Assembly: GCA_021292105.1 (NCBI GenBank)
Contig: CM037870.1
Location: 14,603,234-14,667,233, forward strand
DNA: 64,000 nucleotides
Source: Anadara kagoshimensis
Taxonomy: Eukaryota > Mollusca > Bivalvia > Arcoida > Arcidae
Direction of reading: 5' to 3'
Shown here: in pieces, positions 2,695 through 47,600 of the stretch
Position numbering within the stretch: the stretch's first letter is position 1
How the letters are laid out: every line of letters begins with the position of its first letter
The notes under the pieces: model-generated
Told to the model about the DNA's origin: nothing
What the model saw: the letters and a program-made list of their open reading frames with translations, nothing else
Databases searched by the model: none
Made by a program: the position numbers and the translations under genes

Positions 2695-5600
2695 ATGAGA
2701 AAAATCGCGTTATGTCTGGCAGTATTTGTTATAACAAGTGTCTGCTGGGGTAAGAAACTTTCATTTTTGTGTTTCAAAACTTTTCTTCAGGTATTTGCTT
2801 ACATAACATCTAAACACATTCCTTCAAATCCTAAACATGACATTCCCCAGATAACTAATAGCCGTATTCTTTAGTTATTTTAAAAACATGCACAAGTGTG
2901 TTTTAAAATTAAAGTTAAAAATTGGTTGATTGTTTTAAATGAATGAAATTATTATGAATATAAATATTTTCAAAACTCTGATAAAAGTGGGAAAAATAAA
3001 ACTGAATGATTATTGCCCCATATGTAGCAATAACACAAATGTGTTATTGACATGTATGCATATTTCATAAATATATATATGCTATATAACGTTTAGAATG
3101 AGTTCATTGAATCAGTTAAGTGATAATTACAGTATAAATAAAAGAAATTTCTCATTTGGTCAAATAATTCAACATTTTTATCAAAATGTAAATATGTTTT
3201 TCGATAGACCATTTTGTTTTCCCTCAGGTCAGATAGTTTTTGGAATCCCCCCACCCCACTCAATCTTCCAAAAAAAATTCAAACAAACAACATTTATCAC
3301 ACATAATACTTTTCTTATTTGTGTCATAATTTTGTTGCTTTATGAATTTTTTCTCTCATTCATATTTTAGGAGAAGCAAGGAAAAGACTTGCTTATTTCG
3401 AAACCTTGAAGAAGTCAGATATCTATTCAAGAATCAAGAGAAGTGCTAGTTTGAATCCCAGAGACCATTTACATCAAGTCTGGTTTGCATCTTTTGGCAG
3501 GTACGGTATATAAAATACTTAATCTTCATGCAAGCTAAGCTGCTGTTTTGATAGCCCTTGTTATCCCCCCACCCCCATCACTGTAAATGTGGAACTGGGT
3601 ATATGGCATTACCTTCATGTGCATTATTGCTTCCACATCAGAGCTATCTCTCATTTTTAACTTTGAAAATAACCATTCAAATAGCCAAAATTGTGAAAAA
3701 GAAATTATTGTAATAAAATGTAAATCTAAAATGCATGAAATATATTTAACCTAAAACTAATATAAATTAGTTGTGCTTGTTTCCAGATTGATTTTTGACA
3801 TGAATTTATTTTGATTTTGATTGATTTCACCCCATTATAGTCAGTTTTTAAAGTCTTTTTTTGAACTTGTGAATAAACTTAGAATAAACATTTTTGACAA
3901 AGGTTTATGTGATGTTCAAAATCACAAATTAAACTCCAGGGTATTTTAAAATTTACCAAAATCATTAATGTATCAATTTTGCCAGATTTAAATTAAGGAA
4001 AATCTTAGTAAAAGAATTATTATGAAACTAGAGCCAGGTATATTTAATCTTCAAAAAGGTAAAGGTATGAATTTCCATGTTCACAGTACCCAAGCCAACC
4101 TATTGTTTCCATTTTACTCTGATGTCATTTATCCAACAGAAAATTTACCTTTCCCCATATCAAAATATGGAATGTTGGATAAATGTGAAGACACCAATTT
4201 TTAATTGTGACTGGGGCCAAGTACCAGCCCCAAATATTGCCCAATGAGAGCCCTGAAGAATGGGATATTGTAAGATTGAAGCACTGTTTTAAAAAATGAT
4301 GCTGTATATTACTATTAGACCCATGAATCATTGATTGTTAAAGTATACAAATTTTTATACATCTTTGTAAATATATATATGTTTCAGGGAATTTCAGCTA
4401 GAATTAAAACAATCAACTATTTTACGTAATGGTTTTAAATTGACTGTAGTGGATGGTAAAGGAAATACAAGGAAGGAAGATGTAGATAAAAATGTTTACT
4501 TAACTGGTAACTTGCAAGGTCTGTTTTATACATTACTATACTCTCACAAACACTTGAACAATTAATATTTTAAGTGTTTTGCCTCTTTCTTTAGTATCAC
4601 AGCGTTTTTCACCATCCAGATTTATAGATCCTAATGTATCATTTTGCTTGCCAAAGATTGATGGCTTTCTACAGATACTCTGGTTTCCTCTACTTTTCAG
4701 AACTAGTGAAAAAATCTTGACTAGTTTGTAAAATCCTATTACCTTGCTCCTTGCAGTAGGGGCCACTACAGTAGCTCAGATGGTTGATTGCTCACTTTGC
4801 ATGTGTGAGATTGGAGTTTGAACCCTGGCCAGTGTCTGACCAAGACTTGAAAATAGGTAGTGACTGTTTTTTCACCAAATACTTGGCATTTAGAAATGAG
4901 AATCATAAGATCCTTCTGAAGAGACCTTAAAACCAATGTCCCTTGTCACAGCAGGCATGGCACTTTAAAGAACCCTCCCTGCACATTGCCTTGAGTGTAT
5001 TGCAAAGGTAAAAATTTCTTCCAATCACCTTTAACTGATGTTGTTTTTATATATGTAAGTGAAATATTCTTCATGGGGATGTAAAGCACAATTTAATCAG
5101 CCAATTAATCAGTCATTCTTGCAGCAAGACAGTAACTAAGTGTGTCGACATAGATGTGGTAATTTAAAACAAAAAACAAAAAAAAAAAACCCAATGTTTT
5201 ATTTGTTTTTGGTTTTTTGTAGGAGACAAAAATTCTCATATAGAAGCTCACTGGGAAGATGGTTTGTTAAGCGCCAGTATTAGTACAACAGAAGATATAT
5301 ATGTCATAGAGGTATCAGGACTGTCATATCCCATTTTTATACCCCCAGCTAACAAAGTTTAGTTGGGCATATAGGAATTGACTTGTCTGTCTTTCTGTTC
5401 ATCCTAGTGTCTGTATATATGACTCAATATTGTATCCGCTCCATATCTTACATGTTTGTGAAATTTCTTTTATCAAAGTTTATCGAAACATAAAATGTGT
5501 CTTGTATCAAATTTAGGTGCATTGTTCAACAGTCACAACTCAATGACAAAACTTATGCAGGGCTATAAGTCAGCTTTTATGGAAAGTTCTAGTGGAACTG

Positions 5601-8600
5601 GGGTCCTGGACCTTTGGGATTGGGAAAACTAGCATTATTTCATGCAGTTTTGATTTAAAATCCAAACAGAACAAGAAAATGTAATAGAAATGTAAAGTTA
5701 TAAGTTTGTACAGAACTTATTCCATTTGGAAAAATGCATCAAAATATTTGAGAACAATTAAAGTTTGAACCTTGGGAATGGGGTCTCATTTTCAGCCCCA
5801 AAGGCATAGGGTACTGGTAGTGTAACAAAATCACTGAAAATATGTTTTCTTTGGTAATTTTTGGTCACCATTACATCATTTTTGGTCCCATTTTGAAGTA
5901 ATTTATTCACAAGTTGGAGCTCTGCAGTAGCTTTACCATCTTACTTATCTCCACAGTATTTTATAGTCCCTAAATCAAGAAGGCAGAATGTACTAATTAA
6001 AATTTGTAACAAAATCATCGCTAATACTGGTATGTTTTCTTGGCTTACATGGTATGGAATTTTTTAAATGTTTGTGTTTGTGTTTTTTTCAGCCATCTTG
6101 GAGAATTCTGGAACAATCTGTAAACCATAGTTTGATAGTTTATCGCAAATCAGATGTTATTTGGGACACAAATAGCAAAGTTGCTGGTCACAGGTAACTT
6201 TCTCTTATGATGCTCTGGTTGTGGGAGTTTGGGGTTAGAACCCCTGTCTGGGTTGGAATTAGATATTGGCTGGTTTATTTTTCCAAGCACTCTGTATTTA
6301 GAAATGAAAGTCATGGTATCCTTTTGAAGAGATCTTTAAAACTGATTGCCCATATCACAGGAGGTTTGGCACATTAATGAACTCTCCCTGTAACATTGCC
6401 CTGAATGCCTTGCAAAGAACTTCACCTATTGCTGATGATGTCTTAATATAAGTGAAATATTCTGGACTTGGATGTAAAACCCCATGCAATCAATTGATGG
6501 ATCTTATGATTCATCATAAATTGAGATACTTCTAAATTTTGTGCACATTTATCAAATTTTGTTTCATGTTCAATAGAAATGAAATTTCAGTTATCAGACC
6601 TGTAGAATGTTATGTTGAGACACAATAAAATAAATTGAGTCTTTACATGGAAATTTGAGATATCGAAGTTCAAGGTAACAAGATTTAAACTGTATTTCTA
6701 AGTAGTTTTATCAGACAGATTTCCATAAAGACTGGACAAAAGCTACTTCCATATCAGCTGTTTGTCAAATAGAGGGTTTATCCATGTGATGTCATAGATA
6801 GAGGACCACTGAAGTTGTTAATGTGCAATGGAAATCTGTTTTGTTGGAGGCACATTTGTTGATGTTTTAATTGCAAACTTCAAAAAAAAATTATGCAACT
6901 TTTGTGGAACTAACCATTGATTAATTTTCACCATATCTCTCCAACATGATTTAGAAGATGACTTATTATTGTATATTGTCATGTATATTTTTGTTTTGTA
7001 GAGAAAGTTTTTGTGATCAGCATAGCACACAAACTGGTGACGATGAATTAACTCGTACAGATTTTGAAGTGACTTATGATAGTCATGGTAAAATAATTTA
7101 CATGTTCATGATCATGTGTTATTTATTTACTCATATTATATTTTAAATGATTTCATGTACAGTTAAAGCTTGAGTCTGTGCCACCATTCGTTCTGTCAGA
7201 TTTTGACATTAAAGGGCAGGGTTCGTACAGGCCTGAAATAGTCTTTCGGTGTGATGTCACAGATGAAGTTTGCCCATAAAAGACTCTAAAAACAAGTGAC
7301 CCTAAAAAGCCCTTGAATTTATCCCGAAGGCCCTAAAAAGCCCTTGAATTTGGCCAATTGGGTGTCTGTATTTTGATATTAAGTGGTTGCAAATAGACTG
7401 ATATAAATAAATAAATTTATTTATAAATTACATTGAAATGAGCAATTTAAAAGTACTTGGCCCTCCCGAACACCCAACTTCAACCTTATCCACTTCAAAT
7501 GTCGTTACTATGGACACGTAAGTAATTGTTTTATTGATTTAATTGTCTTTTCACCAATATTTATTTTGCTAAAATTGTCTTTCTGATTAGGCTTTTAATT
7601 TGCAAATAAGACCCTGAAAAGACCATAAAAAGTCCTTAAATTTGAGTCCAAATTTCTGTACCACCCCTGAAGGGGTTTGGCAAGAAAATAATTAAGGGTG
7701 ATTTATATATAGAAATATTTACATAAATGATATTTGGCATTTACATGTACCATGTATTTGTGAATGGATGTAACCTAGCTTTTCACAAATGAAGATGGTT
7801 CCCTATGTACAATATAAGGGAGGAAATAGTGAAAATCTTGTTATAAGGTACATGTATAGATGGTAAACCTTAATTATTTCTTATCTAGCATCCTTAGAAC
7901 AAGTAGTATTCAATTTGCAAAAAAAAAAAAAAAAAAAAAAAAAATGGAGTGGGGAAAACTGTAGATTAAGATGATTAGTAGTTGAGGTTTTCAGTTTTTA
8001 GCTCACCTGACCGAAGGTCATGTGAGCTTATGGCATAGCGCAGCGTGTGTATGTGCGTGTGTGCGTGTGTGCGTGTGTGCGTCGTTAACACCTATTTTCG
8101 ACTTCTCCTCTGAAACTACTGGACAGTTTTTAATGAAACTTTGTCAGAAGTATATATGGGCCGGTGCAATTCAGATTTGTTCGTGGCGTTGCCATGGCTA
8201 CCATAACTAGGTCAAGGTGACCTAGGGTGCAAAAATCTTAAAAAATCTTCTTCTCCGAAAGTACTGATTGGAGAAAAAATCTGATGTGATATTTGGCTTC
8301 TCTAGGGTCTTAAGCCTATAGTTTGTTCATTTTGTGAAATTCGGATAAAAAATAGGTTACGCGTTTTTGCGTTTAATTTTGAAAAAATCGTAAAATAGCT
8401 TCAAATTGTTATAACTTGACTATTTGACCAGATAATGACATGGGGTTTTCAGTTTTGACATCTTCTTGTTAGTATCTTCAAATTGAGGTCAAGGTCAATT
8501 GTGAAGGTCGTGACCTAATTTTTTTTACCTCTGATTATAATTATTATCTCGAAAACTATAAACTTTTTGTATAGGCATGTATATTAGAATGTTGTAGGTA

Positions 8601-11600
8601 TTGATACAACGATCATTTTGATGTATAGAAAAAGGTCATGGGTTCAAAGGTCAAGGTCACAGATGTGAAACAATACCGAAATGGTTAATTATCTTGAAAA
8701 CTATAAACTTTTTGTATAGGCATGTATATTAGAATGTTGTAGGTATTGATACAACGATCATTTTGATGTATAGAAAAAGGTCATGGGTTCAAAGGTCAAG
8801 GTCACAGATGCGAAACAATACCGAAATGGTTAATTATCTCGAAAACTATAAACATTTTGTATAGGCATGTATATTAGAATGTTGTAGGTATTGATACAAC
8901 GATCATTTTGATGTATAGAAAAAGGTCATGGGTTCAAAGGTCAAGGTCACAGATGCGAAACAATACAGAAATGGTTAATTATCTCGAAAACTATTAACAT
9001 TTTGTATAGGCATGTATATTAGAATGTTGTAGGTATTGATACAATGATCATTTTGATGTATAGAAAAAGGTCATGGGTTCAAAGGTCAAGGTCACAGATG
9101 CAAAACAATACCCAAATGGTTAATTATCTCAAAAACTATAAACTTTTTGTATAGGCATGTATATTAGAATGTTGTAAGTATTGATACAACGATCATTTTG
9201 ATGTATAGAAAAAGGTCATGGGTTCAAAGGTCAAGGTCACAGATGCGAAACAATACCGTAATGGTTAATTATCTCGAAAACTATAAACTTTTTGTATATG
9301 CATGTATATTAGAATGTTGTAGATATTGATACAACAATCATTTTGATGTATAGAAAAAGGTTATGGGTTTAAAGGTCAAGGTCACATATGCGAAACAATA
9401 CCGAAATGGTTAATTATCTTGAAAACTATAAACTTTTTGTATAGGCATGTATATTAGAATGTTGTAGGTATTGATACAACGATCATATTGATGTATAGAA
9501 AAAGGTCATGAGTTCAAAGGTCAAGGTCACAGATGTGAAACAATACTGAAATGGTTAACTATCTTGAAAACTATTAACTTTTTGTATAGGCTTTTATATT
9601 AGAATGTTGTAGGTATTGATACAACAGTTATCATGATTTAAAGAAAAAAGTCATTGGGGTTTAGTATTTATGTTTTCTTTAAATCTATCAGCTAGCCATT
9701 AGTTGTCAGGTGAGCGTATCAGGCCCATGGGCCTCTTGTTTCAGGGTGTCATTTTAGACAGATTTTTGGTTTACTCTGGGTTTAGATAAGACATATTTTC
9801 AGTTTTCTCAGGGTTCGTTTTACTCAGGTTTTTTATTACTCATTTGTCATTACTATTTTCTATTCTAGGTGAAGACAGAGTAAAACGTCAAGTTTTTGAA
9901 GATTTAGGTTCCCATGACACCTGTAGTTTATTTGTCGTAGCTGATTATTTATTTCATAAACATGTTGGAGGAGGAAATACTCATACAACTGCTAACTATA
10001 TAGTAGGTGTAATTCAATCAAAAACAACATACTTATCCATGTCCAAATCACAATTTCAAAGCAAAGTAAAAACTTTGAAACTGACAAATTAGGTTAAACA
10101 TGTAAACTTCCACAATGGGAGTCAGGCTGGGTGCTACACAAGTGTAAGCAATTCATTTTTAGCTAGCTACACTGACCATGTGTAATCCAAGTTGAGAGTG
10201 AAAAGAACATGGAACTGTGAGAGGCTAAATATATCCATGGCCATCCTGGACAAAGAGACATCATGCTTATCTTCCAAAAGAAGAAAGAAATGCAACTGAA
10301 AATTTGTACTTAGCAACAACCAATACAACCAAGAATATGACACAATACATGCACATGTACAAGTCAACAATGAAAAAGCCAATTAAAACAAGATAGAAAA
10401 AAGACAAATACATATTTGGACCACTCAATATAAATTATAGTCCCTAACTTTGGACAAGGACTAAAGTAATGTCTTTGCAGTACCCGGTATTCAAAGATGT
10501 GCATATTATAACATAGTTTTGTGAACTTTGACTTTTTTAGCCATCTGTATGCCAGTATTGACCTCAGATTTTTAAACAGTATTTCAAAAGTATTCAATTT
10601 ACATATACATGTATTAATAGGAAAGGAGTATTATAGTTATACCCCTAGTGAAGATCCTTTCATTTATATTGAGGTGGCTAGTTACGGATAGTGCAGGAAA
10701 CCTGAGTGCCTGGAGAAAACTACCAAACCTGAGCAAGAAACTTGACAAACTAGGATCTGTCTCAGGTGTGATTGGAATCTAGGGAGTGAAAAGGGCTGTG
10801 ATCTTAAGTGCACACTTCAGACCACTCAGTCATCGAGTCCCCTACACACAAAAGCATATATCCATTTAGTTTTTTCCTGTGATCCCTAAATATGCATATT
10901 TAAATTTTGAAAAATGAAATGTTTGTTGGTTTTTTTTATGGTATTGAAAAACAATTTACCTTATTCATTTAGATAGGAATCATTAACAGAGTGAATGGTA
11001 TATACAGACGTACAAAATGGCCGGACGACTCGTCAGTTATGACGGGATTAGGATTTGAAATAGCAGAGGTATGAATATGTTTATAATAGCTGTCTAATGG
11101 CATATTTTTATACCTCTTGCAAACGAAAAAAATACCCATCACAAATTAAGTTGGGTGGGTATATTGACTCTAGCTTTTTGTCCATCCATCCATCCATCCA
11201 TCCATCCATATTTTACTGCCTGTCTGTATGGATGGTTTTACCTACATTTCAATATTGTGTCTGCTCCATATCTTCCATATCTATGGGTAGATTTTGATCA
11301 AACTTGGAAGAAATGTAAACCAACATGAGACAAAGTATAGCATACCAAATTCAGGGGCATAGGGGGTCAGTGTTACAAAGTCAGATCTTAAAATTAACAA
11401 CACAACACAGAAACAGGGATATTTGTCCCTCAAGATACTGCTCTAGTTTTCAATAGAATTACTTAATGATGCTTTACATGTAGGTCATTGATCTTTAACT
11501 TGTATTTAGAGACTCAGTTTTTTGGATGGTGACATGAACGAATGTGTCCACAGAAAACCTTTTGCATTTGACAAGCAGATTTTTTAACACCTAGTTAAAT

Positions 11601-13380
11601 TGGCTGTGTAACTTTATACATGTAAGATGTAAAAACCCCAGTTTTGTAGAGTTATGACCCTTTGAAGTTATCAATGGGCATTGATTTTCTTAATAATTCT
11701 TGAAAATTAAGAAAGCTTGTGAAAAGTATAAAACAGTGCCATGAAGTGTTCATAATATTATTATAACATTTGTTCACCAAAAATATTCATAGACGGGTGA
11801 TACCACATGTAATTTTTTCTAGTATTTGATTTTGTCATGACATGGGTTTATTTTATCACCTGCTATTTGTTAACAGTTGAAGATACATGAAGGTTTTACA
11901 AGTGGCAGTGTTCATTACAATATGGATAATAGAAATATGAATACAACACAGTTATTAAAGGTTTGTCACATTTTTTAGGCCTAAAAAACAAGGGGGTTTC
12001 CACTAACCCAAGGTTTCAAAATTATGTTTTATAATGGAAGGTCCATGACTTTTTGCCTATATTTTTAGCTGGTCCCACATGGAGTTTTGAAAATCTAATA
12101 TCATCATTAAAAGGTTTGTGTTAAGTTATGTTATCATAAAAAGGAGTATTATTCTGGTATAAAATGGCAGATCAATTGGACTTTCATAGTTTTAATATCA
12201 AGGATCCCAATGTCAAAAAAACAGGGCCCAGACTTAGGACCTGGGGAATTTTGAACCCTTGTAACTCAATGACTTTAAATTTTTATGCCTACTTTAAAAG
12301 TTTTGTCTGACAAGCACTGTTAAAGTTGACATCAAATGTCTACAAACTAACCCCAGTTTTTCTAAGAGTGTTAGTGGAATTACATTTTGTTTTTAAAATT
12401 TTGGCTTTATTTTGTACCTGATAATTTGCAGCATAAAATTTTATACACATGTATTTACGTTGTTACTGTAAAACAAGATATGCCTGCCAAATAAGACCCA
12501 TACACATTGATGACTGACAGAAGTGTATACATACTGAAGGGGATTATGTTGAAAAATAATGCAATATTTCTGCCAAGTTTCAAACCCTTGCATATAAGAC
12601 CCAAACATATCAATCAGCCCTAGTATGTGTATGTCTGCTTTGTACTAGCAGGCACTCTGTTGCTCATCAAGACAGCAGTTGCAGAGGTTTCACCCACACT
12701 GATCTATTATCCCTACACCCTGTAGGTCAGCAGCAATGTGAAATGAAGTCACTTGCTCAAAGACACAACATGCCCTTGTCGGGATTCATACTTTAGATCC
12801 AGAGTTTTCTGGACATTTTTCTAAACAAGAATTAGTTGATTAGTGATTCATGCATATACATGATATAGAATATAAAATTGCAACTCGGCTTGAGATTATG
12901 AGCTATGGTTCTTGAATAAGATGGCGGTAAAAAAAACCATGGGTGTGTCTTTGTACGGTATTTAAAACTATGTGTGCACCCTTGTGCCTATTGATTTTTA
13001 TGATAAAGGATACAAAAGTTCATCAACATGTATTATTTAATTACAGAACTTTAGCCGAGAAAGAGAATTTAATTCTTATTGTCTGGCACACCTGTTTACC
13101 TATCAGAGATTTGACAGAGGTGTGCTGGGGTTAGCTTACATATCATCATCAAAGAAGAAAACTTCAGGCGGTATTTGTTCTACATGTAAGTGTTCTTAGT
13201 TGTCTTTACTGCATGATATTTTCAACCCAGAAATTTCATGTAGTGTACCTTTATCAGAGCCCCACAAATGCTGACAATGTCATTCAGTGGTGAAGTTCAA
13301 TGCTTTGTTAAAAAAGGCTAAACTTAGGATATTAGGCTTTGTCATAATGTTTTTGTGATTACTCGATTATCATTAGTATC

Positions 13381-13411
<31 letters not shown>

Positions 13412-16118
13412 ATGACTGATTTTCAGATTGGTGATTTGCTTGTCAATTTAGTGTTCTTTAGCCAATTTCAGCCAATTGTAGAGCTCTGACCAGTACTTGT
13501 ATTAAAAAATTGGGTTATGCTTACATTTGATTTGCTATTGTTTTCATTTAACTTACTATTGTATTCAGTATACAGAAAAAAAGGCTATTATAGTAACTAC
13601 CTGTACATAAAGACCACTTGTTTTTACTGTAAAACCTGCATACTATAATTTATTTTAGGATATATCATTAATTTGAATTTATTCAATTTCATTCAATTTT
13701 CTTGTATTTGTTCCCAATGCATGATGATTTGACCATCCTGAGTTTTAACCATTCTTATAAGTTTGCATTCATTTGTTAGCCACCCATTCTATATTTGCAT
13801 ATATAGTATTGTTGAAAAGATATTTGTCATTTCAGGAAAAATCATACATATCAGCCATTTAGTAGATTTTAAGATTTATTCATTTCTAATTAAGTATATC
13901 CATTTCTAGTTAAGATGATATATAAAAACTTGAAAAGGGTTTCAAAATTTTATGTTTTGTAATGGAAGGTCCAGGACCTTGTGCCTTTATTTTTGGCAGT
14001 TTCCACATAAAGTTATGAAAGTCCAATATCATTGAAAAATTCATGTCCAAATATGTTGAAGTATTATTTTGGTAAAAAATAGCAGGTCCATCGGACCTTT
14101 ACAGATTAAATAATAAGGGCCACAATGTAAAATCAATAGGTCCTGGACCTGGGACCTGGGGAAATTTGAACTCCTGCAGATATTATGGACAGAATTGTGC
14201 TTAGACATGATGCAGTAGCAAATCTAGGGATTTTGGAAATGGAAGGTCCATAATATCTGCAATTTGAGCAAGTTTTATAAACATACCTAATATCAAGAAC
14301 AGAAATAAAGGGGAAGGGGGTCTTAGAAATTCCTTCAAGACATAACCTATTTAAGCAAATATGTGCCGAAAATATTATTTTTAAAAAGACAGTTTTCACC
14401 AATTGAATACTTTTAAATTTCTGGAAACCTAAAGGTGTTTAAAAAAAAAAAAAGAAAATAAGACACCATGAAAATTAATGATTTGTCAGAATGAAATAAA
14501 GCATGTGGCATGATTTATTAAATTGTAGCTCCAGTATTATATGGCTATGTTTTTGTTTTTGATAATGTACCTATAAGCAAACAGTATTGACCTGTACACT
14601 TGACCTTAATTTAAATATTTATTATGGACCAGTACATTCATGTATAGGGACACAGGTAGGTTTCTTGTCTACATCAAGGAAAACGTACATTGTCTATATA
14701 TTAACTGCGAAGTCTAAAACTACCATGCTGATGAATCTTTATATATATATAAGTATTTCCTATAAAAGGTCAAGTGGACAGGTCATTGTTGTTGCCTATG
14801 TTACCTTTTGCTGGATAAAGTTTTTTCTTTGGTTTTGATACCTACCCCTTTTGTGGATTAAGTTTTTGTTTTTGTTTTGTTTTTCCTTGCACAGTGCATG
14901 ATGTTGACGGAGAGAAGCTTACATTAAATACGGGGTTCAGTTCCTGCATGAACAGCGAGGGACAGAGGGTTTTGTCCCTAGAAGCAGCTTTAGTTACAGC
15001 ACATGGTAAACTGTTTGACAAGAAACTTCAATGAGTGTGTTTATTTCAATTCTGCATTTTGATAATGCTTACATTCAAATATTTTGATTTGTTAATTTAA
15101 TAGAATTAGGATTCCCTTTTAGCAATTTAGCATTTTCCAAATTTTTTAAATGAGAGGTAAGACATATATATTTAAAAGTGTAAGGATTTGTTTTTAGTAA
15201 TTTACCATTTTCCAAAAGTCCAAAATGAGAGGTTATAATTATTTTTAACATCCAATATCAGCTCCCTGCATCAGTATAGGTATCCACGCCGAAAAATCTT
15301 GACTTTGTGTCAAGTTTTGTCTGCACACGTTTTTCAGTACTGTCCATCACATGTTGATGAAACTTCACAGAACTGTTCAGTGAAAGGTGTAATCATGCAT
15401 ATCATTAAATTTCCTGTTCCAGATCAACGATTTATCTAGGAGTTATAGCCCTTTGAATGTTTTAATAAATTCATGTTACAAATGCCTCTCCAAAGAGGAT
15501 CTTGCTTTAGTGAAAGCTCATGTGAGCATTCCAACAATTTTTCTACAATTTTTCTATCCTTGATATGGAATCAGAAAAATTCTCCTGTTGGCACCATTGG
15601 GGATGCTTTATTCCTCATTTTGAAACTGAACATTCTGTGTAGTGCATTAGTGGTCATTGTTAGAACATGATTTAGTTACCATGGCATAAAACCCTATTTA
15701 ATCATTGACAATGTCATACAACAGCAAGTTTCGTGAAATGTTAAATCATGCATACAGTAAAACCTTGTTATAATGCCCCTTAATAACTTTGCCACCTCCC
15801 TTATTGCCACACTATTTTGCAGTACAAAAATCATTTTGTTTATGTTTTTCTTTATCCACCTCCCCCATTTTAATGCCAAACCCCTTTATAACACCAGAAT
15901 TTGACTGAACAAATGGTGGTGATGAATCCAGGTTTTACAGTATGCCAGTGATCAGTCAATTCCTTTAAATGTTTCAATGAAAATGTGTACATGTTTTTTT
16001 ATTTTACTTTACAATGTTTTCATTTATTTTGCATTTTATGTTATCTTTTTTTCATGATTTTATGGAATTCCTTCAACTCCATTGATTTGGCATGAATAAA
16101 AGAACTAGGTAAGCTTAT

Positions 16119-16167
<49 letters not shown>

Positions 16168-17895
16168 AGAGAGAACAACAAATATACAATACATAAACAT
16201 AAATCTTCTAACCCAAATACAGTTTACTACAGAAATAAAACACACATAAGGATTTCAATATGATAACATTTGTGTTTTATGTGGAAGACAGAAACTTGAG
16301 AAAAACCAAAAAATACATCAAAGGGACTATAGGTATGCTTTCCTCTGCAGTTCTCTTTGTCCCTCTTCTGAAACAAGAGAGAGAGAGAGAGAAAAAAAAG
16401 AAAGTGAGAGAGAGCTTAAAATAGTGATATAAATGAATTATTCAAAGAGGTTTTATTGATATTTGTTGATTAAGCAGTCTGATACATCAAACTGTGGTCC
16501 ATCTGAATCACCCATTATTACAGTAGCTTAGTTGTTAAACTGCTGACTTTGTACAAATTGGGGGATCATGGGTTTGAACCCTGGCCAGTTCTGTCCAAGA
16601 CTTGAAAAAAGGTAGTGACTTCTTTCGCCAAACACCTGGCATTTAGAACTGAAAATCTTAAGGTCTTTCAGGAAAAACATTATAATTGATGTCCTGTGTC
16701 ACATTAAAAAAACTTCCCTGCACATTGCCCTGAGCAAACTGCAAAAGTCAAAATTTCTGCCTCTTCACCTATAGTTTAACCTGTATATCTAATTACATTT
16801 TATTTTGTTATGTAGGACATAATTGGGGTAGTGAGCATGACCCTGACACACCTAGTTGTGCTCCGTCAGAGAGAAATGGAGGGAAATACCTAATGTACCA
16901 GTATGCTGTCAGTGGTTTCGAAAATAACAACCAGGTAAGCCTCATGATATTGTAAGAGGAGGGAGGAAACACCTGAAAAAAATCCACTTCCTCATTGAGT
17001 GCCCTGACTGAGGATCGAACCCAGAAAAGAGAGCATTCTTCCTCAAGGCTATAAGATACAGACCAGAACCACTGTATTATTAATAATCTACTACAGTCAA
17101 ACCTGTCGACAAAGGCCACCCAAGGGAACTAGTAAAAGTGGCCTTTATGGGCAGGTGACCTTCATATACAGGTTCAAATAATATGAATAAAGAACAATTG
17201 GGATACAATTCTACTGGCCTTTATAAGCAGGTGTCTTTTATATAGAGGTGGCCTTTAAGGCAGGTTGGACTGTATATACAACACTAGGACACCACAACTA
17301 GCTCAGCCCTACAACAATATGTACAGTCAAGCCAATCTGTAACTGCCACCTATGGGAACCTGGTTCAAATATCATGAATAAAAAATACTTGGGATAAAAT
17401 TTGACTGGCTTTTAAAAGCAGGTGTTCCTAAAACGGATACAACTTTTAATTCAAGTTTGACTGTACTGTGAAATAAATAATTTGTTTTTCTGCCTTAAAG
17501 ACCACCTCTATATAAGGGCCACCTGCTTGAAAAGGTCAGTGAAATTGTATCCCAATTGTTCTTTATTCATATTATTTAAACCTTTATATAAAGGCCACTT
17601 TTACTTGTTCCCTTGGGTGGCCTTTATAAACAGGTTTTACTGTATATTGTCCGTAGACGTGAATTTGTTGGTCAAGGTGTCCATGATAACAACAAAATTT
17701 GAGACTCCACTGAAATTAATAATTTCACAGTATATTTTATTGTGAAGATTTTAAGGATAATTTTTTTTATTATTAATATTTTGGCATTCAACAAACATAC
17801 AAATTTAATTATATTGTCATAAAATCTTCACAAAATAGTACAAAAAGAAATATAACTAATTAATACACATTACACATGACCTAATCTTGTAATGT

Positions 17896-17934
<39 letters not shown>

Positions 17935-20900
17935 TGGATGTAACTTTTAATTTAGTTTAATATTGTTAAATGTTGTCCCTGTAATCTTGAAAAATATTCA
18001 TATTCCCCTTTTCTTATTGCTATAGATTTTTGATATTTATCAGGTCTTTAATTGTATTTTGATAGGCACTAAAAGACAATAGTTTATTTAAGCATCTTGA
18101 TTTGAAAATGAAATATTTGGTTTGTGTAATGTTCAAATTTTTAAGATGATTTCTGATGACAAAAATAAGAATAACCAATCTTGGTCAAAATTACTGTAAA
18201 TGAATTAAGGTTTGTCTGTATATTACTGTCATTGGTTATATTTTCAGTTATTTTCACAGTGTAGTAGACAGTATATACATAAAGTATTAGAATCAAAAGG
18301 ATATGAGTGTTTTAAAGGTAAGAAAAAAATACTTTGTCACAACCCCCCTCCCCCGGAAATAAATCTCCAAAACTATCAAATTCTTGGGGTTCAAAAACCC
18401 CTCTAAATTATTCAGTCATCACAGCAACTGTCTGCCCAGGGTCATTGATTTTTAATATCTGAATCAGCAGTCTCTGCAGGGCACTGTCGTGAAGATGACA
18501 GCTAGCATCTTGAAGTTGCATCGGGTGCACACTAGTACAAGGCAGGCAATAAAACACACTCACACACCACATGCATTCACAAACATGTTCTTAGATTAAC
18601 TCTTAGAGATTGATAACTTGCTGATATGAGAGATTGATAACTTGCTCTCTTTTGGAATAGCCAATATGATTTGGGATTACATATCCTTACGAAACCAATC
18701 CAATCAAATCAGATATGGTAAAGGTTCTATGCCCCAGTCACAACTGTGTCACTCATATCGGTTCAATCGGTTCATTGCTGGTGGAGAGAACTGGAGTGCC
18801 AAAAAAAACACCACAGACCTTGGGCAAGTGAACTGACAAACTTTTTCACACCAGGATCTGTCCCAAGTTGGATTTTAACCTAGGCAGTCAGAGGCACTGT
18901 AATCTGTTAGCACTCAGCACTGAGGCCACTTGAAAATAAAAATTCTACATATGTATCCAACTCGCTGTCTAAAAAAATTAGTATTAACTTTGTTGTGTTT
19001 TGTAGAACACTCTGGATTTACGTTCTGTGGTAATGGAAGATTGGAAGATGATGAAGAGTGTGATGCTGGTCACAAGGGAGATAACTGCTGTACATACGAT
19101 TGTAAACTCAACAAGACTAGTAAAGCAGTATGCAGGTAAAAATAGAGAAAGTATATTATAGAAATGACTTTAAAACATGTATGTTGTAAATATCTATCAG
19201 AAGTTTACAATTATTTGTCGTAGTAACAAAAGAATTCTTGCCAACAAAAAAATTGTTGCTTAAAATCTAACAATTTGGATTATTGATAATTTAAAGTTGG
19301 CTGATTTGATAATTAGTGCTTTGTAAAAAAAGGTGCTCTGATAGTAGAGGTAAATATAGACCAACACAGAGGAGATACTGAAAGCAATCTGACTAAATGA
19401 TGATGTCTGTATCCAACCTTGGGGTGTCGTCAACTACAAAATGCTAAACAAAAGTCATGTATGTGAATTATCTTTAACATAGAAAATGCTAAAATCGAAA
19501 CTTCCATTAAATAGATGATCAATCTGATTAATCCACAATCAATCAGTTGAAGTCCACTGATTATCTTTCAATGATCGTTTCTTCAACATTTCTTTGTAGA
19601 CAGTATCAACAATGATGCTGGATGACCTTTTGAGTTTTTCAGTCTAAATTATCAAAAACTTTATAAAAATATTTTCGTGAAAAGTAACACCAGTGATACA
19701 AAAGTTGCATATTATTGAACATACTGGTAGGTCCAAATCACAAAAAATGCATCAGAAAGGAGGGTCCTTATTCACTAAATTTACTTGTATCAGAATCATT
19801 TTAAAAAATTCAAACACATGATCAAGTCCAGCTTTTTTCCATGTTTTTATGTTTTTTTAGTCCGTGGAATTATGAATGTTGTACTAAATCTTGCCAGATT
19901 GCTGAGAAGGACACAGTGTGCCATTCCTTGCCAGATGATCTGTTTACCTGTAAGCAGAGTTCAAAATGCGAGTATCCTTTTTCTTCATTTATAATTGAGG
20001 CTCATGCTATTGTTTGTATTACGGTTATTGCCCAATGTTTTTCTTCTTGTTCTATATCTTGGTAGCCATTTGTAACCAGGTGTATTGCCCTTGTCATCAA
20101 AATACCTTCATTATACTCCCTCTTCATCTTATACCCCCTCTTCCAAGCAGAGAGGGATATACTGGTTTACCTCTGTCTGTCTGTCGGAAACAAAAACAGT
20201 TTTCTCAGCAACTACTAAACGCAGCCATTGTAAATTTTGTATTCAAATTCAGTCTCAGGCCCCATGCTACAAGTACCGATTTCAAGTCTGCCAGACATCT
20301 ATTTTTTTTTAACCAACTTAGATTATATTTCGACATTTAGGGTCAATCTAATGTCTAACCATTTGTCTTGTATCTCTTTATCAATGGATCATCTCCACAT
20401 CTATTTTGGTCTGCCTGGCTTTCTTTTGCTTAGTTGTGTCCATCACATTGCAACTCTGGGATGGATTTAGGGTGCATTCTGGCAAACTTGCGATACCCAT
20501 TTCCAGAGATAGAGGCATGGTGTTTGTCCTTTCATACATGTAAAGTTCCTTGTTAGGGGTGATTTTTGACTGAAAAATTTCACAGAATTTGATGATGTTG
20601 GGTCTGGATGACATCTTGATTGTTAATGATGGCATTAGCGGTCAAACCATGTTGCTTGTAAACTACCTTAACTAAAATCCAGTGGTATACATCGTGAGTG
20701 TCAAGAGCCACAACCGAAGAATAATTATACAGAATGTGTAGATAAGTATGTTTAATATACATTCATTTTGGAAACATTTTTTGTCTTAAAAGAAAAATAC
20801 AGCATTTCATTTTTGGTTTGAATGCCAATTTTATTGGCATAACAATATTTTTAAAATTGGCAAAAACAGTAATGTTCCTGGCATCTGCGATTTACCCATA

Positions 20901-23900
20901 CAAAGTAGAGAAGGTTTTATGCTACTTTAGGTGCAAGTGGAGTTGAGAAATGGCGTTTCATGCCTCAATTGAGATGTTGTCAATTCTGGGATGATGGAGT
21001 AGATTTATGGTGTTTTGTCGTCTGTCAATATTTTTTCACTTATATGGAGGTGAACAGTTCTGGGATGGTGCAAAAAATGGAGTAACCCCAAAAAACACCT
21101 CTCTTCATAAAATGAAATGACAGTCTTTTTCACATTAGGATCTGCCTGAGAGAAGGACTACAGGGTTCATACAGGCCTGAAAAAGTCCTTAAATTTTAAG
21201 GTTTGACCTAAAAAGACCCTAAAAACAAGTCTGACCCTAAAAAGCCCTTGAATTTATCCTGAAGGCCCTAAAAAGCCCTTGAATTTGGGAAGTTGGGTGT
21301 CTGTATTTGGATATTAAGTGGTTGCAAATAGACTGATGTAAATAAATAAATATTAATAAGTTACTTGAAAGGAGCAATTTAAAGTTACCTGACCCTTCCA
21401 AATGCCCAACTTTAACCTTATCCACTTCACATGTTGTTACTATGGACTTGAAAGTAATTGTTTTATTGATTTAATTGCCTTTGCATCAATATTTTGTTTG
21501 CTTCAATTGCACTTCTGATTAGGCCCTAAATTTGCAAATAAGACCCTGAAAAGACCGTAAAAAGTCCTTAAATTTGGAGTCCAAATGTCTGTACGAACCC
21601 TGGACTAGAACCTAGAAGTGAGAAGTCCTGTGATCTGTAAGACAGCATTTTAACCTGTGAACCCTAGCTGATGGAGGTTTATGTGTTTAACTTAATTTGC
21701 TAGTGTTCAAAGTTTTTGCTTTGCTTTTTGAGATTGTGGTTTGGACATGAACCATTACCAGTATATCTTTGTCTAATTCACTTACAAAGTCCCCTTTTTT
21801 AGGGTGAAGTTCTTTGTTAGTTTATATCAAACATTGAAGTTTTTTGTAGACAAAGGTTAAGAGTATTTTCAAAGTTTCTTGAAGTTTTGAAATACAGAAT
21901 TTTTTTTTTCCTTCTTTCAACTCTTATTTTCACTAGAAATAAACATACTAAAAACTGTATGTGCATATGTATGTGTGCGAATGCATTTTTGTGTGTGCAT
22001 AGGTGTGATTTCCCTTTAAATTGTATATACAAATTTTTTTGTTTTTTTTGTTTGTTGCCTTGCTTTGTTAATAGTTTAATTGTTTTACAGAGGTAAATGT
22101 TTTAATGGGAAATGTGTCAATTACTGCAAGTTAAAAGGGCTTAGTTCCTGTATTTGTCCAAAAGGTAATTAAAATACAGTAGAACTTCGATGGCTCAAAG
22201 TCCATGGGACTTTGGCCAAGTATTCGAGACATCGGAGGGTTCGAGCGACCGAACATCGAGAGGCAATCTTCATTAGATTTAGGTTTCATTCCCTTTAAAA
22301 ATATTAAATTCACGATGATATCTCTAAGTTTTCAAACTTTATTTGTAAATAAAATGTCGAATGGCAAATCTATCGATATCGACCGTTCATTTAAATTAAA
22401 TAAATTTAGTTGAAAGTAAAAGTAAATAACAACAACGGACGATATAAAATAAACTTACTTTATTATCGTTATAATACAGAGCACATGGTATTGCCGGTTA
22501 TTAATAATCATCAGAACTACCCGTAATACACATTGCCATGCGCATTCCAATGAAATGCAATTAACAGAATCTGAATATTCTATGATGAGAGAAAAAGTCA
22601 ATCATCTGGCGTGGACTCTGTTTTACGGATCAAGCAGCCGCGGGTCGTAATCGGATTAAGAGATTACTGAACTGATCACGGTTAATTACTAATCTTGAGT
22701 AACACTCTATGTTCCAGACGAGTTAATTCGTTTCGCTCTATTACTTTCGGTGAAATCTGTATCATGGCTTCAGCTTGTGTTTTGTTTACAATGACTGACC
22801 ACATGTCATTCTGATAAAATTGTTTTCGAGCGAAAGAAGTTTAATTTCCACCAAATTTACACCGTCAAGAAATATTTATTGTTCGAGCGAGTGGGGGTAT
22901 TCGAGCTATCGTAGTTTGAGCGATCGAGGTTTATTTACATATGATTTAATAGGGATTTGGACGGGACCGGCAGATGACTTCGAGTTATCCGGGGTATTGG
23001 AGGCATCGACGTTCGAGCGATCGAAGTTCTACTGTATTATAAAAAGTATAGGTCTGTTGAAATTTTAACAATTAAGCTAATAAATACAATGTAAGCCCTG
23101 CATTGCTGATCTTAGCTCCTCTTATAGCCCATTGAGGCGCCTTAAGGGGGAAATAATGAAAATCTTTAAACTCTTCTCCTCTGAATATACAAAAGATATA
23201 GCTTAGATATTTCCTGTAAAGCATACTTAGGATGCCACGTTTCAGATTTGCACAAATGGGAGCTGTAGGAAATTTCTGCAATACGTCACCATTTTGAGAC
23301 ATGGAATGGAAGTCTCATCAACAGAATCTCACAAGATTTGAAGAGATTTCAAAACAAATTTTTTGAATGAATAGAAAAAATAGTTGTTTGCTGCCCTTTC
23401 TTAATGGTCACACCATCAGGCATATTATGTAAATATTTATTCCTTTATTTCCTGATTTCAGACAGTGGACATGCCTGTCATCGTTGTTGTCAGACGGAGA
23501 ACGGAACAGATTGTAAATCTCAGGGAGACATATTACCAGATGGCAGACCTTGTTTTCAGGGCTATTGTGTTCAGGTAAATTTTATTTCTTATCTTGCTCA
23601 GTCCGTTTCAATCACTTTTAGTTGTAAGCATCCTCTGTAATGGCCACAGGTGGCAAACACTTTTTCAAACTCTTCAGAGGTGTCTTTAGCATGCACAGAA
23701 ACACAGGACCTCAGTTTTGAGTCTCATCCGGAAAAAATACTCTAGTAATGACCTTTTTACAGCTCTAGTATGGGCAGGAGATGAAAATCATCTCTGAAAA
23801 TTTCCAAGTCCCAAGTGACTGTTCTCAGTCCACATGTGATGATAACATGACTTATATTGATCACACTTGTGGAAGAAGAATCCCACTTTGAAAGTAAGTT

Positions 23901-24451
23901 GACCTTGGTTTTATAGGACAACACAATTTAAAAAAAAATACATATAGCCCATGGAATATGTACATTTATATATGCATAAGTTTCGTAAAGGACTTGACAG
24001 TGTTTCAAACATGTTCATCTATAATTTTAGGGAGTTTGTGAGAAGCAGACTCCAGAAGTTATACAAAGATTGCATTCATTAATCGAACAGATCACATCTG
24101 ATAAAGTTGGTAAGTAATGATATAATCTTTTCATCACTCCTCTTTGTGAGTTTTATGCTGGAATTTTTTTGTTACAAAGGCAGAAGTGTGATTTGGTTAA
24201 AAATAGCATAAATAATTTTGAACTAAAGTTTTATATTATAAAACATGAACATTGCTATTTATTTTGTTATTATAACTTTCGCAAATGAAGTCTCCTTTGT
24301 GTTTACATGTAATTATCATTGTACATTTCAGTTGCCTTTATGAAGACCAATATTGTTGGTACAATACTGATATTTTCTTTACTAATCTGGATTCCTGCTA
24401 GCTGTACCTTTAGTTATTTTGTAAGTTTATATGTTATTTGTAGTAACAGTG

Positions 24452-38673: not shown

Positions 38674-41600
38674 GTTACAAATAGATCATTAAGCAGGGAT
38701 TTTTGTATACCAAATGGAAGATAAATGAACGACATAACGTACATCTGCCTTCTTTGCTTTTTATTGAACAGCATTGTGCATATATTTGCTTCAGGTACGT
38801 TTATTATTATTGATAAGCATAATATGTTACATATTACACCAGTTTTAATTTTACAGCACTAGACGACCGTTTCGGAATATAACTCCTTATCAGTAGCTGG
38901 ACCAAAATTATGAAACCAAAATTATTTTGAAGATGTTGAAAAGGACCAAAATATATTTTACCAAATTAAGCTAAGGAAATAATTTGTATGAGGGAGTTTA
39001 CCTTAGTTTTTGAGAAATTTCAAATTTTAACTTGCAGGAAATTTAGACAATTATAGTATATTTATGATACTAATGAAACATTAAAATATATTCAGGTTAG
39101 TTTTGTATGCAGACACATTATACTTATTAACTGTATTAAGATGACAGCCATTAAACTTTTTGAGGGTCTTGATAATTCTCGGCTTGCAATAGAGGGTCAA
39201 CACAAACAATAAAATGCGTTACACGATAGACAAACAGAACACCGATTATGTAGCGTTTAAACGAACATTCAATAATAATGAAATTGTACTCATAAGTGAT
39301 TTAAACACTTGTATAGGACATAATTTTTCTGTTTATTTTAAAGCAGTTTAATAATGCTCGCTGATTATAAAACTAACCTTCCAACAGGTCCGTTGAAAAA
39401 TTATTACGAGCTTAGTATTTTTTGGACAATTGTGATTCTATTTATGTTACAATCAGTTGTCCAAACCTCTCACATAACAAGTGACACGTAAATGGGATGG
39501 ATTCTTCAAAAGGCCTTAAACAAAACCAGTGTATATTATTTTTGTCACAATACCAGGTGTCTGTCGAATGCATGTAGTATTATAATCAGTTGACTATCCA
39601 GTCATGTTCTTTCATTTTGTTTCTTATAAAAATGAATCAAAACAAACTTACTAATCAATGTCCAAATCACAATCCAGAAGTAAAGACTTTAAAGACGTGA
39701 CCTTCCACAAGGGAAGTGAGACCGGATGCTCTGAAAGGGTGAGCACCTCCGGCTTAGCTAGCTAAAGCCGCCATGTGTGCAATAAAAATTGAGTGAAAGG
39801 AACATGGAACTATGGGACTTTAAATATATCTTGAAAATATTTTCTATTCGTTATTGAAAAATGAAAGAAATTGACATTTTGCACACAAAACTATTCGCTT
39901 ACACGTGTATTCTGGCATTGGCTGTTACAAAGTGCACATTGTTAGCTTTTTAGAACCCTTTCTTTTTCTTTAATCAGTTAACTGTTTTTGTTTACTTTCA
40001 GATATCGAGAGCCATGTTTGTTACCCGGCTATTAACAGAACGCAACATTATTACTACACAAATATTTCAATTTCCCTTGATACTGATCTGTTTAAAGAAA
40101 TCGTGACGAAAAACACATCAAAATGTATATTTGAGTTTCAACTTAGAAATCGTGGAGCAATATTTATAGAATATAATACAAAAAATAGATACAGGATATG
40201 TAGAATCATTTCTTCCGTTACATTTAAAATTGACAAAGAAGGTCTCCCCGTGAAGGTAAGTTAATCGAACATAAACATTACTAATCCATATCAAAATCAC
40301 AATCTCAAAGCTAAGTAAAAACTCTAAAGCTGACAAATTAGATAAAATTCGGAACCTCCACTAGGAAAGTGAGGCTGGGTGCTCCGTAAGCACATCCCGT
40401 TGAGGCAGCTACAACAGCATCTACTATACAGAGTAATGTAAGAATTGTTTAAGAAATAATTCAGATTTATCCGTGCCATCATCAAAAAATAAAATAAAAA
40501 TGCACGGACCGTTGTTCATATACAGAATAATAAATCCCGAGGTAACAAAGCAATCAAGAGATTTATTCTATCAAAGGGCATTATTGGATCATTAGGACCG
40601 GTTGTTCTTCAACCGAGAAAATGTCCGCTGTAATAAAGTTTTTTATTACGTCAGAATACAATACGAAATCATCGTATCATAAAATAGTATTGACATCATC
40701 GGAAGTTAAATGGAATAGTTATAAATCGGTGTTGTATCGTTTTATACTACATGATTTTTATAATCAATCGCACGTTATGATATACAGGGAGTGCTTATCC
40801 CCTTCAGAGCACCTGGTCTCACTTGGAAGTTCACGTTTTTAATCTTTTTCGCCAGATTAAAAGTTTTTTACTTTGCTTTGGGATTGTGATTTGTGAATCA
40901 ATTGGTATATTTGATTTTTAGCTGTGACAGCTCTTTGGTACAAGTATTTTGATTGAGTGTTATATGTCCCTTACCCGTAGTCCATTCTTCCTAATGATGT
41001 TGAGACTGTTGATAGTGTCACCGTCAACAGTTTTCCCTTCTCCAAAAAGAGAATTTTATCAAGAAGAACTATTAAACGGACAGAATTGTACTCATTAGAA
41101 ACATAAAAAACTTTGCTTTATGCATAGGACTTAAGTCAAAAGTTTAGTTTTCATGGCGTCATAGGACTTAAGCCAAAAGTTTAGTTTTCATGGCGTCGCA
41201 GGACTTAAGTTAAGTTTTTATGGCGTCATAGGTCTTAAGTCAAAAGTTCAGTTTTCATGGCGTCATAGGACTTAAGACAAAAGTTTAGTTTTCATGATGT
41301 CATATGTACAATATAAAATTTGAAATGGTAGAACATGAAAACTATGAGACGTTGCTGACCTAGCTAGCTAAACAGAGGCTTACATTTCCGGAACACCTGA
41401 TATTTCTTCCATGATGAAAGTTTTCCCTTTTCTTTCTGTGATTGTGATTTGAGCATCAACTGGTATGTTTAAAATTATGTCTTTACTTTTTCAGACACTT
41501 AACTGTTGGGATACTGGACAATGGACTGTACCATGGCCATGGAACAAAGTCGTTGTAGAGATGAATTTGTCAGTTGATGAAACTTTATCGTATCCGCGCA

Positions 41601-44600: not shown

Positions 44601-47600
44601 TCGTGAATTATTGGAAATTTCTTTCGAATCTGTAGATAATAGAACTTTCTATACGTCTTATTCAATTAAGATAACAACTAATGAATCTTACTCCTCATAT
44701 GGTCAGTACAGATGCCCGTATGAGACAACCACAGCAACAGTGCCAACAAGTAAGTAATCATATTAGTCAATAGCGATATTTCAATTTGTTAATCTCCTAT
44801 CCGGATTTTATAAGATATGTATTGGTATTTAACCCCCCTTCCGTGAAGATTCTGCTTCTCTAACAGAGGTTGTCAGTTTTGATGTACCGGTAGAAAACTA
44901 CAGACTTTTGATCTTTTGACTTTTGACCATACAAAGATCTGTTCGAATATGATTCAAACCTTGGCGATGAGCAGGGCTGTGATCTGTAAGGGTGTGCTTC
45001 AGACCACTGGAACCTTGGCGATGAGATTTGTAACGACGAGCTTCAGACCACTGGAACCTTGGCGATGAGATCTGTAATAACGAGCTTCAGACCACTCATC
45101 CACTGGAACCTATTATAAAAGAATTAAGAAATCTAAATAGGATTCAAACCTTGGCGGTGAAAATGTCTGTGATCTGTAAGGATGTGCTTCAGATCACTGG
45201 AACCTGTACGGACGGATTTCAGACCACTGGAACCTTGGCAATGAGATCTGTTACGACAAGCTCTAGACCACTGGAACCTTGGCGATGAGATCTGTAAGGA
45301 TGTGCTTCAGACCACTGGAACCTTGGCAATGAGATCTGTAAAGACGAGTTTCAGACCACTCGTCCACTGGAACCTGTTATAAAAAAATATAGAAGCCTAT
45401 CTCTAATCAACAGGTACCTTTAAACCTCTGACAAGCGTCGCAGAAACCTTCTTATTTAGTTCAACGTAAAATGTACTTCTCTAGTAACAGCATTGCATAC
45501 AAAAACTGTAAACATTCTAAGAGCTCATGGCCAAATAGAAAAGAAACAAAATAGAATCTAATTGTTTATGGTAACCTTGATAGATGTTGTTTGTATCCAT
45601 CTCAATCCTGATAATAAGGATAAAATCGGTTAACGAATTATTATTGTCTAGTAAGAAAGGATCCCGAGGACTTATAATCAAACAGGAAAATGTTTTTGTT
45701 AATTGATTGTATTATGTCATTTACAATGTTAAGTTGAATGTTAAATAAAAAAAAAGAAATACAAAAACAATAAAGTCAACACAAGACTTTGCCACTCGCC
45801 TCTGCTCTTGGCTTTGGTCTCTGCTTTTCTCTATGCATTGTTAAAATCTTTCAGTTATCATTTAACTGTTCTATGCCAAGTTGTTTTCTGTCTTTTTTCC
45901 CGGTGGTGTCTATCTAAGATTCCACTTCCTTCATTCTAAAGACATGCCCTTACAATCTTAATCTTCTCTGTTTTATTTTGTTTTATGGTGTTTGTATATG
46001 AATATTTTTTCAAATCTTAATTGATGGCATTTCGAGATTTGACACATTCTCTCTCTCTTTTGTCGCCCATTTCATTCTTCAAAATATGTACAAAGTATTT
46101 TGCTATGTACAGGTAATTGCATTTTAAGAAGATCTTGGAAATATCTGGCAATTTAGATTCAGATGGATAAAACAAACACATCAGTCCATGTCTAAAGTAT
46201 ATCCCAAATCAAAGTAAAAACCTTTGAAAACTGGCATACATATATTAAGTTAAACACGCCAATTTTCACCAGGGAATTGAGACCGGGTGTTCCGGAAGGG
46301 TAAGCTCCTCCAATTATTCAAAAAAACACACATGTCAATCGATGTCCAAATCTCAATCCCAAAGCAGAGTTAAAACTTTAAAACTGGCAATTAAGTTAAG
46401 CATGTGAACTGCCACCAGGGAAGTGAGGCCGGGTGCTCCGGAAGGATAAGTGTCTCCTGTTTAGTTAGCTACTACTGCAACGTCTGTCATAAAAATTGAG
46501 AATGAAAGAAACATGAAACTATATGGGACGTCGAATTTATCCAGGACAATTTTTGATACAGAGAAATCATACTTCCTTTCACACTATTTTGATTACACAC
46601 GTGACGGGTGTAGCTAGCTAAACAGGAGGTGCTTACCCTTCCGGAGCACACGGCCTCACTTCCCTGGTGGAAGTTCACGTGTCTAACCTAACTTGTCAGT
46701 TCCAAAGTTTTTACTTTGCTTCTGGATTGTGATTCGGACATGGATTAGTGTGTTTGTTTTTGATTATTAACAATATTGTGACGACAGCCATAAAACTTGA
46801 ACTATGGTATTAAACTAGCTGAACATTCTGGAGCACCTGGTCTCATTTTCCTGGTGGAAATTAATATTTTTCATCACTAACTCTGTCAGTTTGTAATAAC
46901 TTACTTTACTTTGGGTTTTTTGGACATGGGTTAGTATGTTTGCTTTTGATTATACTAATAATACTAATACCAAATGAATAAATGTACAATGTATAAGCAA
47001 CTGACAATTTGACAATTTTTCAGCAAGGGCAACAAATAACGATCACGAAGACTATTGGAGTTATAGAAGACCAGGTGTTGTAACTTACCTGGTTCCAATT
47101 GTAGCTGTACTTATCATGGTGTTTGTCTGCATCTGTTTCGCGTCATACATTAAATCAAAAAGAACTTCGAGACAACGCCGTATGCAGCAACACCGTATAC
47201 AAATGGCCTACACACCCACAGGTTTGTATATTACTTACTTACTTCCTTCCTTCCTTACTTACTTACTTACGTACTTAATTACATACTTACTTACATACTA
47301 ACTTACTTGCTTACTTACTTAGGCCTTTAATTACCTGTGGCCTTCCATCGTGGATTTGTTTTGTACGAGTGTTTCTATGTCTGTGTATTATTGTCAGAAA
47401 TATACTATAGTCTAAATTTGCTGCTAGTAACTAAATTTGAAATTCCTCAAAAACTAAGGTATACTCCCTCATGCAAAGTATTTCCTTAGCTGAATTTGGT
47501 AAAATATCTTTTGGTCCTTTGGGTATCTTTTCAACATCTTGAAAAGTTAAACAGTTTTGGATTCATAATTTTGGTTCAAGCACTACTGATGAGGAATTGT

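Follow-up and report, generated by a model that had tools for sequence, protein, structure and literature searches.

Results

An ADAM17-like gene with a divided catalytic motif

The window, by which we mean the whole stretch of 64,000 nucleotides that was analysed (G000:C14:14603234-14667233, within the 1.115-Gb genome of Anadara kagoshimensis), contains a gene whose recognisable pieces encode parts of a prodomain, an RVKR furin-type site, a catalytic domain, a disintegrin domain, a membrane-proximal domain and a transmembrane-like segment (Table 1; the extent given there is without the first exons, and the 3' end lies beyond the part that was traced). Pfam comparison of the spliced model, with Glu-Leu included at the active site, identified an M12B/reprolysin catalytic domain (PF13574, 108 bits; PF13688, 101 bits; PF01421, 46 bits) and the ADAM17 membrane-proximal domain (PF16698, ADAM17_MPD, 29.5 bits; cut-off 26.2), all above the Pfam cut-offs, and the solved structures nearest to the protein were those of ADAM17 (3.1e-53 for the best chain, compared with 2.8e-34 for the best ADAM10 chain). 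These matches bear out the identity proposed in an earlier, sequence-only reading of this DNA and support the prediction of an ADAM17-like (TACE) metalloprotease with putative sheddase activity.

Further along the window, two related open stretches (39974-40264, with DIESHVCYPAINRTQHYYYTNISISL, and 59706-60125, with DIENHVCFPAVNRTQHYYNTDISISL) are evidently exons of a duplicated downstream gene. Open stretches over several exons at 47005-50125 suggest a single-pass membrane protein having a proline-rich tail with PPPSYE-type motifs, and others at 48214-48923 on the minus strand resemble part of a TTF-type zinc finger or hAT-like transposase.

In the ADAM17-like gene, the zinc-binding and catalytic motif HExxHxxGxxHD is complete only if six bases, AACTAG, are spliced into the message from within a stretch of 1,810 nt that would otherwise be a single intron. 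Joined directly, the flanking exons are in phase and give H-G-H, whereas CAT G^AACTAG^GA CAT (^ marks a splice border) gives H-E-L-G-H. Direct inspection of the letters shows AAAAG just before the six bases, GTAAGC just after them and ATGTAG before the G at 16816, and the predicted junction with the microexon included is ...GCACATG AACTAG GACATAATTGG.... Two introns, both of phase 1, interrupt the codons of HExxH at H-G^AA CTA G^GA-CAT, leaving an exon of 6 nt with the catalytic glutamate, except for the opening base of its codon, and the residue after it, and the downstream exon with the other two zinc-ligand histidines. The sequence-only reading had proposed such an exon, and its reading of AG^AACTAG^GTAAGC, with Glu-Leu restored in phase, stands; so does its statement that the intron holds a single match, as AACTAG alone fits both AG^AR(CTN/TTR)G^GT and the looser AG^ARNNNN^GT. 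The limits of 15005 and 16816 that it gave are right as the bordering exon bases and not as intron ends, the true intron being 15006-16815.

Table 1. Features of the ADAM17-like gene in the window (positions of the window) and the intron-bearing ADAM17-like genes found in the genome
Feature	Position	Strand	Remarks
ADAM17-like gene, recognisable extent (approximate)	about 4382..24400 (at least)	+	spans about 20 kb
Upstream coding exon	14895..15005	+	ends GCA CAT G, the last G opening the Glu codon
Upstream intron, 1,097 nt	15006..16102	+	donor GTAAAC; acceptor AATAAAAG, pyrimidine tract poor
6-nt microexon AACTAG	16103..16108	+	both borders in phase 1; GAA-CTA(G) encodes Glu-Leu of HELGH
Downstream intron, 707 nt	16109..16815	+	donor GTAAGC; acceptor TTTTGTTATGTAG
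(CA)n microsatellite, 42 nt	16122..16163	+	starts 13 nt after the microexon in A1, near its splice donor
Downstream coding exon	16816..16934	+	begins (G)GA CAT AAT TGG, G-H-N-W-G-S-E-H-D
Gene A1 (window)	C14:14.62 Mb		6-nt exon AACTAG; HELGH
Gene A2	C14:16.00 Mb		6-nt exon AACTAG; HELGH
Gene B1	C14:9.97 Mb		6-nt exon AGTTTG; HEFGH
Gene B2	C14:10.82 Mb		6-nt exon AGTTTG; HEFGH
Gene C1	C14:50.65 Mb		6-nt exon AATTTG; HEFGH
Gene C2	C14:48.76 Mb		6-nt exon AATTCG; HEFGH
Gene D	C1:36.9 Mb		6-nt exon AACTAG; HELAH; downstream exon begins CT CAT

The same six-base interval in paralogous genes

A protein search of the whole genome returned at least 25 matches (counts for large families are lower bounds), and seven intron-bearing ADAM17-like genes were found, forming four diverged groups, A to D (Table 1). 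The family is expanded in this genome: six of the seven copies lie on contig C14, as three close pairs (A, B and C) whose members are about 0.8 to 1.9 Mb apart. A tandem repeat of about 145 bp at 8470-9600 of the window is common to introns of two ADAM17-like genes, as its translation is met again some ten times in the C1 copy (L027), between two of the exons there.

The exon borders were identical in all seven genes, the upstream exon ending with the histidine codon plus a G and the downstream exon starting two bases before CAT. Each has the glutamate of the catalytic motif, encoded as GAA or GAG and followed by a codon for Leu or Phe, on a candidate exon of 6 nt (microexons as a class have about 3-30 nt) with AG before it and the consensus donor GTAAGT or GTAAGC after it. 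The acceptors of groups A (AATAAAAG) and B are 40% pyrimidine over the 20 bases that precede AG. Further matches to AG^ARNNNN^GT occur in A2 (three) and D (one), none of which yields Glu, a hydrophobic residue and Gly or Ala before the second His.

For the exons that could be aligned, to which the following comparisons are confined, A1 and A2 differed over 183 codons by 16 synonymous changes and one replacement (dN/dS 0.01), C1 and C2 over 168 codons by eight synonymous changes and one replacement (dN/dS 0.03), and B1 and B2 over 113 codons by two synonymous changes and no replacement. The copies thus look functional. Around the microexon, 60-base flanks on each side, compared from group to group, agreed at 15-27 of 60 positions. 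With the splice signals removed (AG, and six bases from the start of the donor), the group representatives agreed at 14-22 of 58 positions upstream and at 11-20 of 54 positions downstream; for random 60-base pairs drawn from the same introns the mean was 17.0 positions (5-95% range 11-23). Since similarity between groups is at background, the microexon has not been carried by recent intron copying.

In 2,000 dinucleotide shuffles of the window intron, the strict pattern AG^AR-(hydrophobic codon)-G^GT[AG]AG appeared in two, and when the donor requirement was dropped a match appeared in 79. The strict test applied to one member of each other group gave one in 2,000 for B, one in 2,000 for C and 11 in 2,000 for D, and each of these introns holds exactly one site. 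The window locus taken alone is therefore suggestive of an exon, and it is the paralogues that decide the question.

ADAM10-like genes have the motif in one piece

In three loci that we take to be ADAM10-like from their motif, without a tree, HExxH is uninterrupted. One, on contig C2 (C2:20506547-20507116; L005, L031), has no introns and is possibly an old retrogene; its open frame covers 874 aa and its HELGHSFGSPHD is intact. The two on C12 have the motifs AHEVGHNFGSP and AHEIGHNFGSS, and in an ADAM10-like locus there (C12:6332886-6333017; L036) a short sequence encoding TTFAHEIGHNFGSS occurs at least twice in tandem. A split of HExxH general to ADAM10/17-type genes was rejected on this evidence, the split being confined, among the loci seen, to the ADAM17-like genes. 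No spliced retrocopy, which would have stood in as a fossil cDNA, was found in the genome, where the joined 232-nt junction matched only A1 and A2, exon by exon (four matches reported), and an exact degenerate pattern for contiguous HELGHNWG, restricted to those codons, gave no genome match.

Predicted proteins of other species

A protein query that contained the two residues gave, as the best 120 of 590 proteins, 35 named mollusc entries, 23 entries with lgn, jgi or ena identifiers and 62 other named entries. Among the molluscs, 27 had HExxH, seven were exactly two residues short and one was of another kind; the Solemya velum entry has extra intron-like residues at this spot. All 62 other named entries, nearly all from arthropods, and all 23 lgn/jgi/ena entries had HExxH. 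The latter are probably read assemblies or cDNA: 20 of the 23 are on contigs of less than 4 kb (proteins of 738 and 768 aa, for instance, on contigs of 2,381 and 2,486 nt respectively) and so must be spliced, given that the gene here is about 20 kb long. For 12 of them the nearest named neighbour was a mollusc (P0004, P0005, P0014, P0018, P0019, P0024, P0027, P0033, P0040, P0042, P0048 and P0050).

A second query, from which the two residues were left out and which by design favours gap-bearing proteins, returned 19 proteins. Among 250 proteins, the two-residue gap was present in 16, namely one from the annelid Paralvinella palmiformis and 15 from 13 mollusc species: Tegillarca granosa (three proteins), Ostrea edulis, Pinctada imbricata, Argonauta hians, Haliotis cracherodii, Biomphalaria glabrata, Mytilus edulis, Pomacea canaliculata, Nucella lapillus, Batillaria attramentaria, Babylonia areolata, Plakobranchus ocellatus and Ruditapes philippinarum. 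Tegillarca granosa, a close arcid-type relative, provided the nearest named hit. Over both queries, 15 of 44 named mollusc entries, a non-random sample, had the gap, 28 were intact and one was misread; the gap was confined to named predictions and did not occur in the lgn/jgi/ena entries. The motif was intact in entries from Capitella, an annelid, and Lingula, a brachiopod. It had been forecast from the window alone that gene predictors would miss the exon and report a dead enzyme, and that the same border should be sought in other molluscs; the predictions two residues short agree with the forecast, and at the level of proteins the matching gaps in 13 species answer the second point.

Two pairs of entries are instructive, the first of them giving the clearest case. 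The Pomacea canaliculata proteins P0043 and P0123, from contigs of equal length, are identical at 359 of 374 ungapped residues; their sole difference at the junction is EL, absent from one of them. Likewise, Mytilus edulis P0122 and M. trossulus P0002 share 612 of 653 ungapped residues and differ at the junction by two residues. What is evidently the same gene has been annotated with and without them.

Beyond Lophotrochozoa, searches with two artificial gap-bearing segments found no gapped protein, HExxH being present in all of the best 120 of 685 proteins (the named ones vertebrates). Together with the 62 intact named entries above, this gives no sign, as judged by the gap fingerprint, that the split is older than Lophotrochozoa. 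The comparison, being one of proteins, hints that the split may be absent outside this group.

Discussion

The nature of the six bases

Taken together, the comparisons make it very probable that AACTAG is a genuine 6-nt microexon of an ADAM17 protease, ancient in origin and included as a rule. A working Glu codon and consensus donors have been kept in every paralogue, from which we infer that the microexon is spliced into most or all mRNAs. If an old microexon is normally included, the 'dead' proteins in databases would mostly be annotation errors, and the enzymes themselves are probably not dead.

The alternative that survives best, while still improbable, is a regulated switch of the kind proposed in the sequence-only reading. 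Inclusion would give an active sheddase and skipping a catalytically dead ADAM17, perhaps with the role of a decoy. Skipping would preserve the frame and all other exons, and groups A and B have weak acceptors. Splicing factors can bind CA repeats, and a (CA)n tract starts close downstream of the microexon in both A1 and A2; in A2 it is 22 nt long and lies 16 nt away, so that the microsatellite is variable. No such tract of at least 10 nt was found within 200 nt of the microexon in the B, C and D copies. NCBI-style 'isoform X2' models usually draw on RNA-seq, and a Biomphalaria entry of that name (P0108) is without the two residues, one of the gap records from 13 mollusc species and one annelid. 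Against this, the glutamate is missing from none of the 23 assembly-derived entries, although in a protein database clustered at 90% identity a minor isoform would merge with the included form and stay hidden; the near-identical Pomacea sequences are annotated both ways, as annotation error predicts; and all seven copies have consensus donors. An active/inactive switch received no support here. In Drosophila, alternative splicing is reported for 283 of 411 internal microexons (PMC8042270), which leaves regulation some probability in this gene too. The broader proposition, that the Glu exon has served lophotrochozoans as a regulated on/off device ever since molluscs and annelids shared an ancestor, and does so in several gene copies per genome, is in our estimation a long shot.

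The consequence of skipping also speaks to this question. Two codons would be lost in frame, and with them the general-base glutamate, while the first two zinc-binding histidines would move closer, from HxxxH to HxH. From the structure of metzincins, zinc binding is expected to fail with that spacing, so the skipped form would lose zinc binding as well as activity; this counts against a regulated switch and makes an isoform that is 'inactive, otherwise intact', as had been suggested, doubtful. Some skipping may nevertheless occur, given that the A and B acceptors contain only 40% pyrimidine.

It is highly improbable that the 6-nt exon was gained independently in each group instead of descending from one ancestral arrangement. 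Such gains could account for flanking introns that are no more alike between groups than background; but the two introns occupy identical positions, in identical phases, in all four groups, bivalves, gastropods, a cephalopod and an annelid have two-residue gaps that match them, and repeated gain at two identical positions would be far less parsimonious. That the six bases are a chance match and no exon, the gene being a pseudo-protease without the glutamate, is scarcely credible: six bases alone are weak evidence, as the shuffles without donor consensus show, but such a site with a consensus donor lies in seven of seven paralogous introns, the product of the four shuffle frequencies is about 1e-12 (treating the diverged introns as independent), dN/dS between A1 and A2 is very low and relatives have HELGH or HEFGH. 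A pseudogene was likewise rejected by the open exons and low dN/dS.

How six bases might be recognised

An exon of 6 nt would be too small to be recognised by ordinary exon definition. What all copies have in common is the strong donor, GTAAGC or GTAAGT, and the downstream intron may well be removed first, from this donor; once it is gone, the six bases would head an exon of normal size, and the upstream intron could then be spliced. In the opposite order, an exon junction complex deposited after removal of the upstream intron could repress a donor lying only 6 nt from the junction. Repression of such donors by the exon junction complex is described for reporter and cryptic microexons in human cells (PMC6224609), and for the 9-nt exon of a potato invertase the second intron is stated to leave before the first (PMC4674806).

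Comparison with known short exons

The closest analogy is the mini-exon of plant invertases and fructosyltransferases. The beta-fructosidase motif is catalytic. Part of it is encoded by this ultra-short exon, 9 nt long and likewise in phase 1, which went unannotated in rice and maize invertases (PMC8831610). Encoding residues of a catalytic motif and being conserved among paralogues, the hallmarks of such motif-splitting mini-exons, also hold here by analogy only: the invertase exon belongs to a glycoside hydrolase and has 9 nt, whereas the present one belongs to an animal metalloprotease, has 6 nt and carries the general-base glutamate, and there is no homology between them. The six-nucleotide exon of chicken cardiac troponin T has the same length and is not known to form part of an enzyme active site. 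It is called constitutive in PMC4674806, where constitutive exons of both 6 and 9 nt are documented. Neuronal microexons of animals (up to 30 nt) share the size class and the difficulty that they pose to standard RNA-seq aligners (PMC7821500), but are described as dynamically regulated cassettes, while the ADAM17 exon carries a catalytic residue. Vertebrate and insect ADAM17/TACE proteins belong to the same family and have the motif HE[LF]GHNxGxEHD; unlike the molluscan predictions, they show no two-residue gap in the protein comparisons given above. A search of the open-licence literature, outside which most subscription journals lie, found no earlier report of a 6-nt exon in ADAM17. Motif-splitting microexons are therefore a known kind, of which the ADAM17 member appears to be unreported.

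Significance

The findings indicate that public annotations contain a set of falsely dead proteases owing to a missed microexon, and in-frame gaps of two or three residues in the catalytic motifs of predicted proteomes offer a cheap route to more exons of this sort. Were the on/off device real, programmed skipping would yield a full-length pseudo-protease competing with active ADAM17 for partners and substrates. The paralogues and species together provide a natural experiment on how the spliceosome recognises 6-nt exons, and they indicate that across molluscs and at least one annelid an essential residue of ADAM17 depends on the recognition of an exon of six bases.
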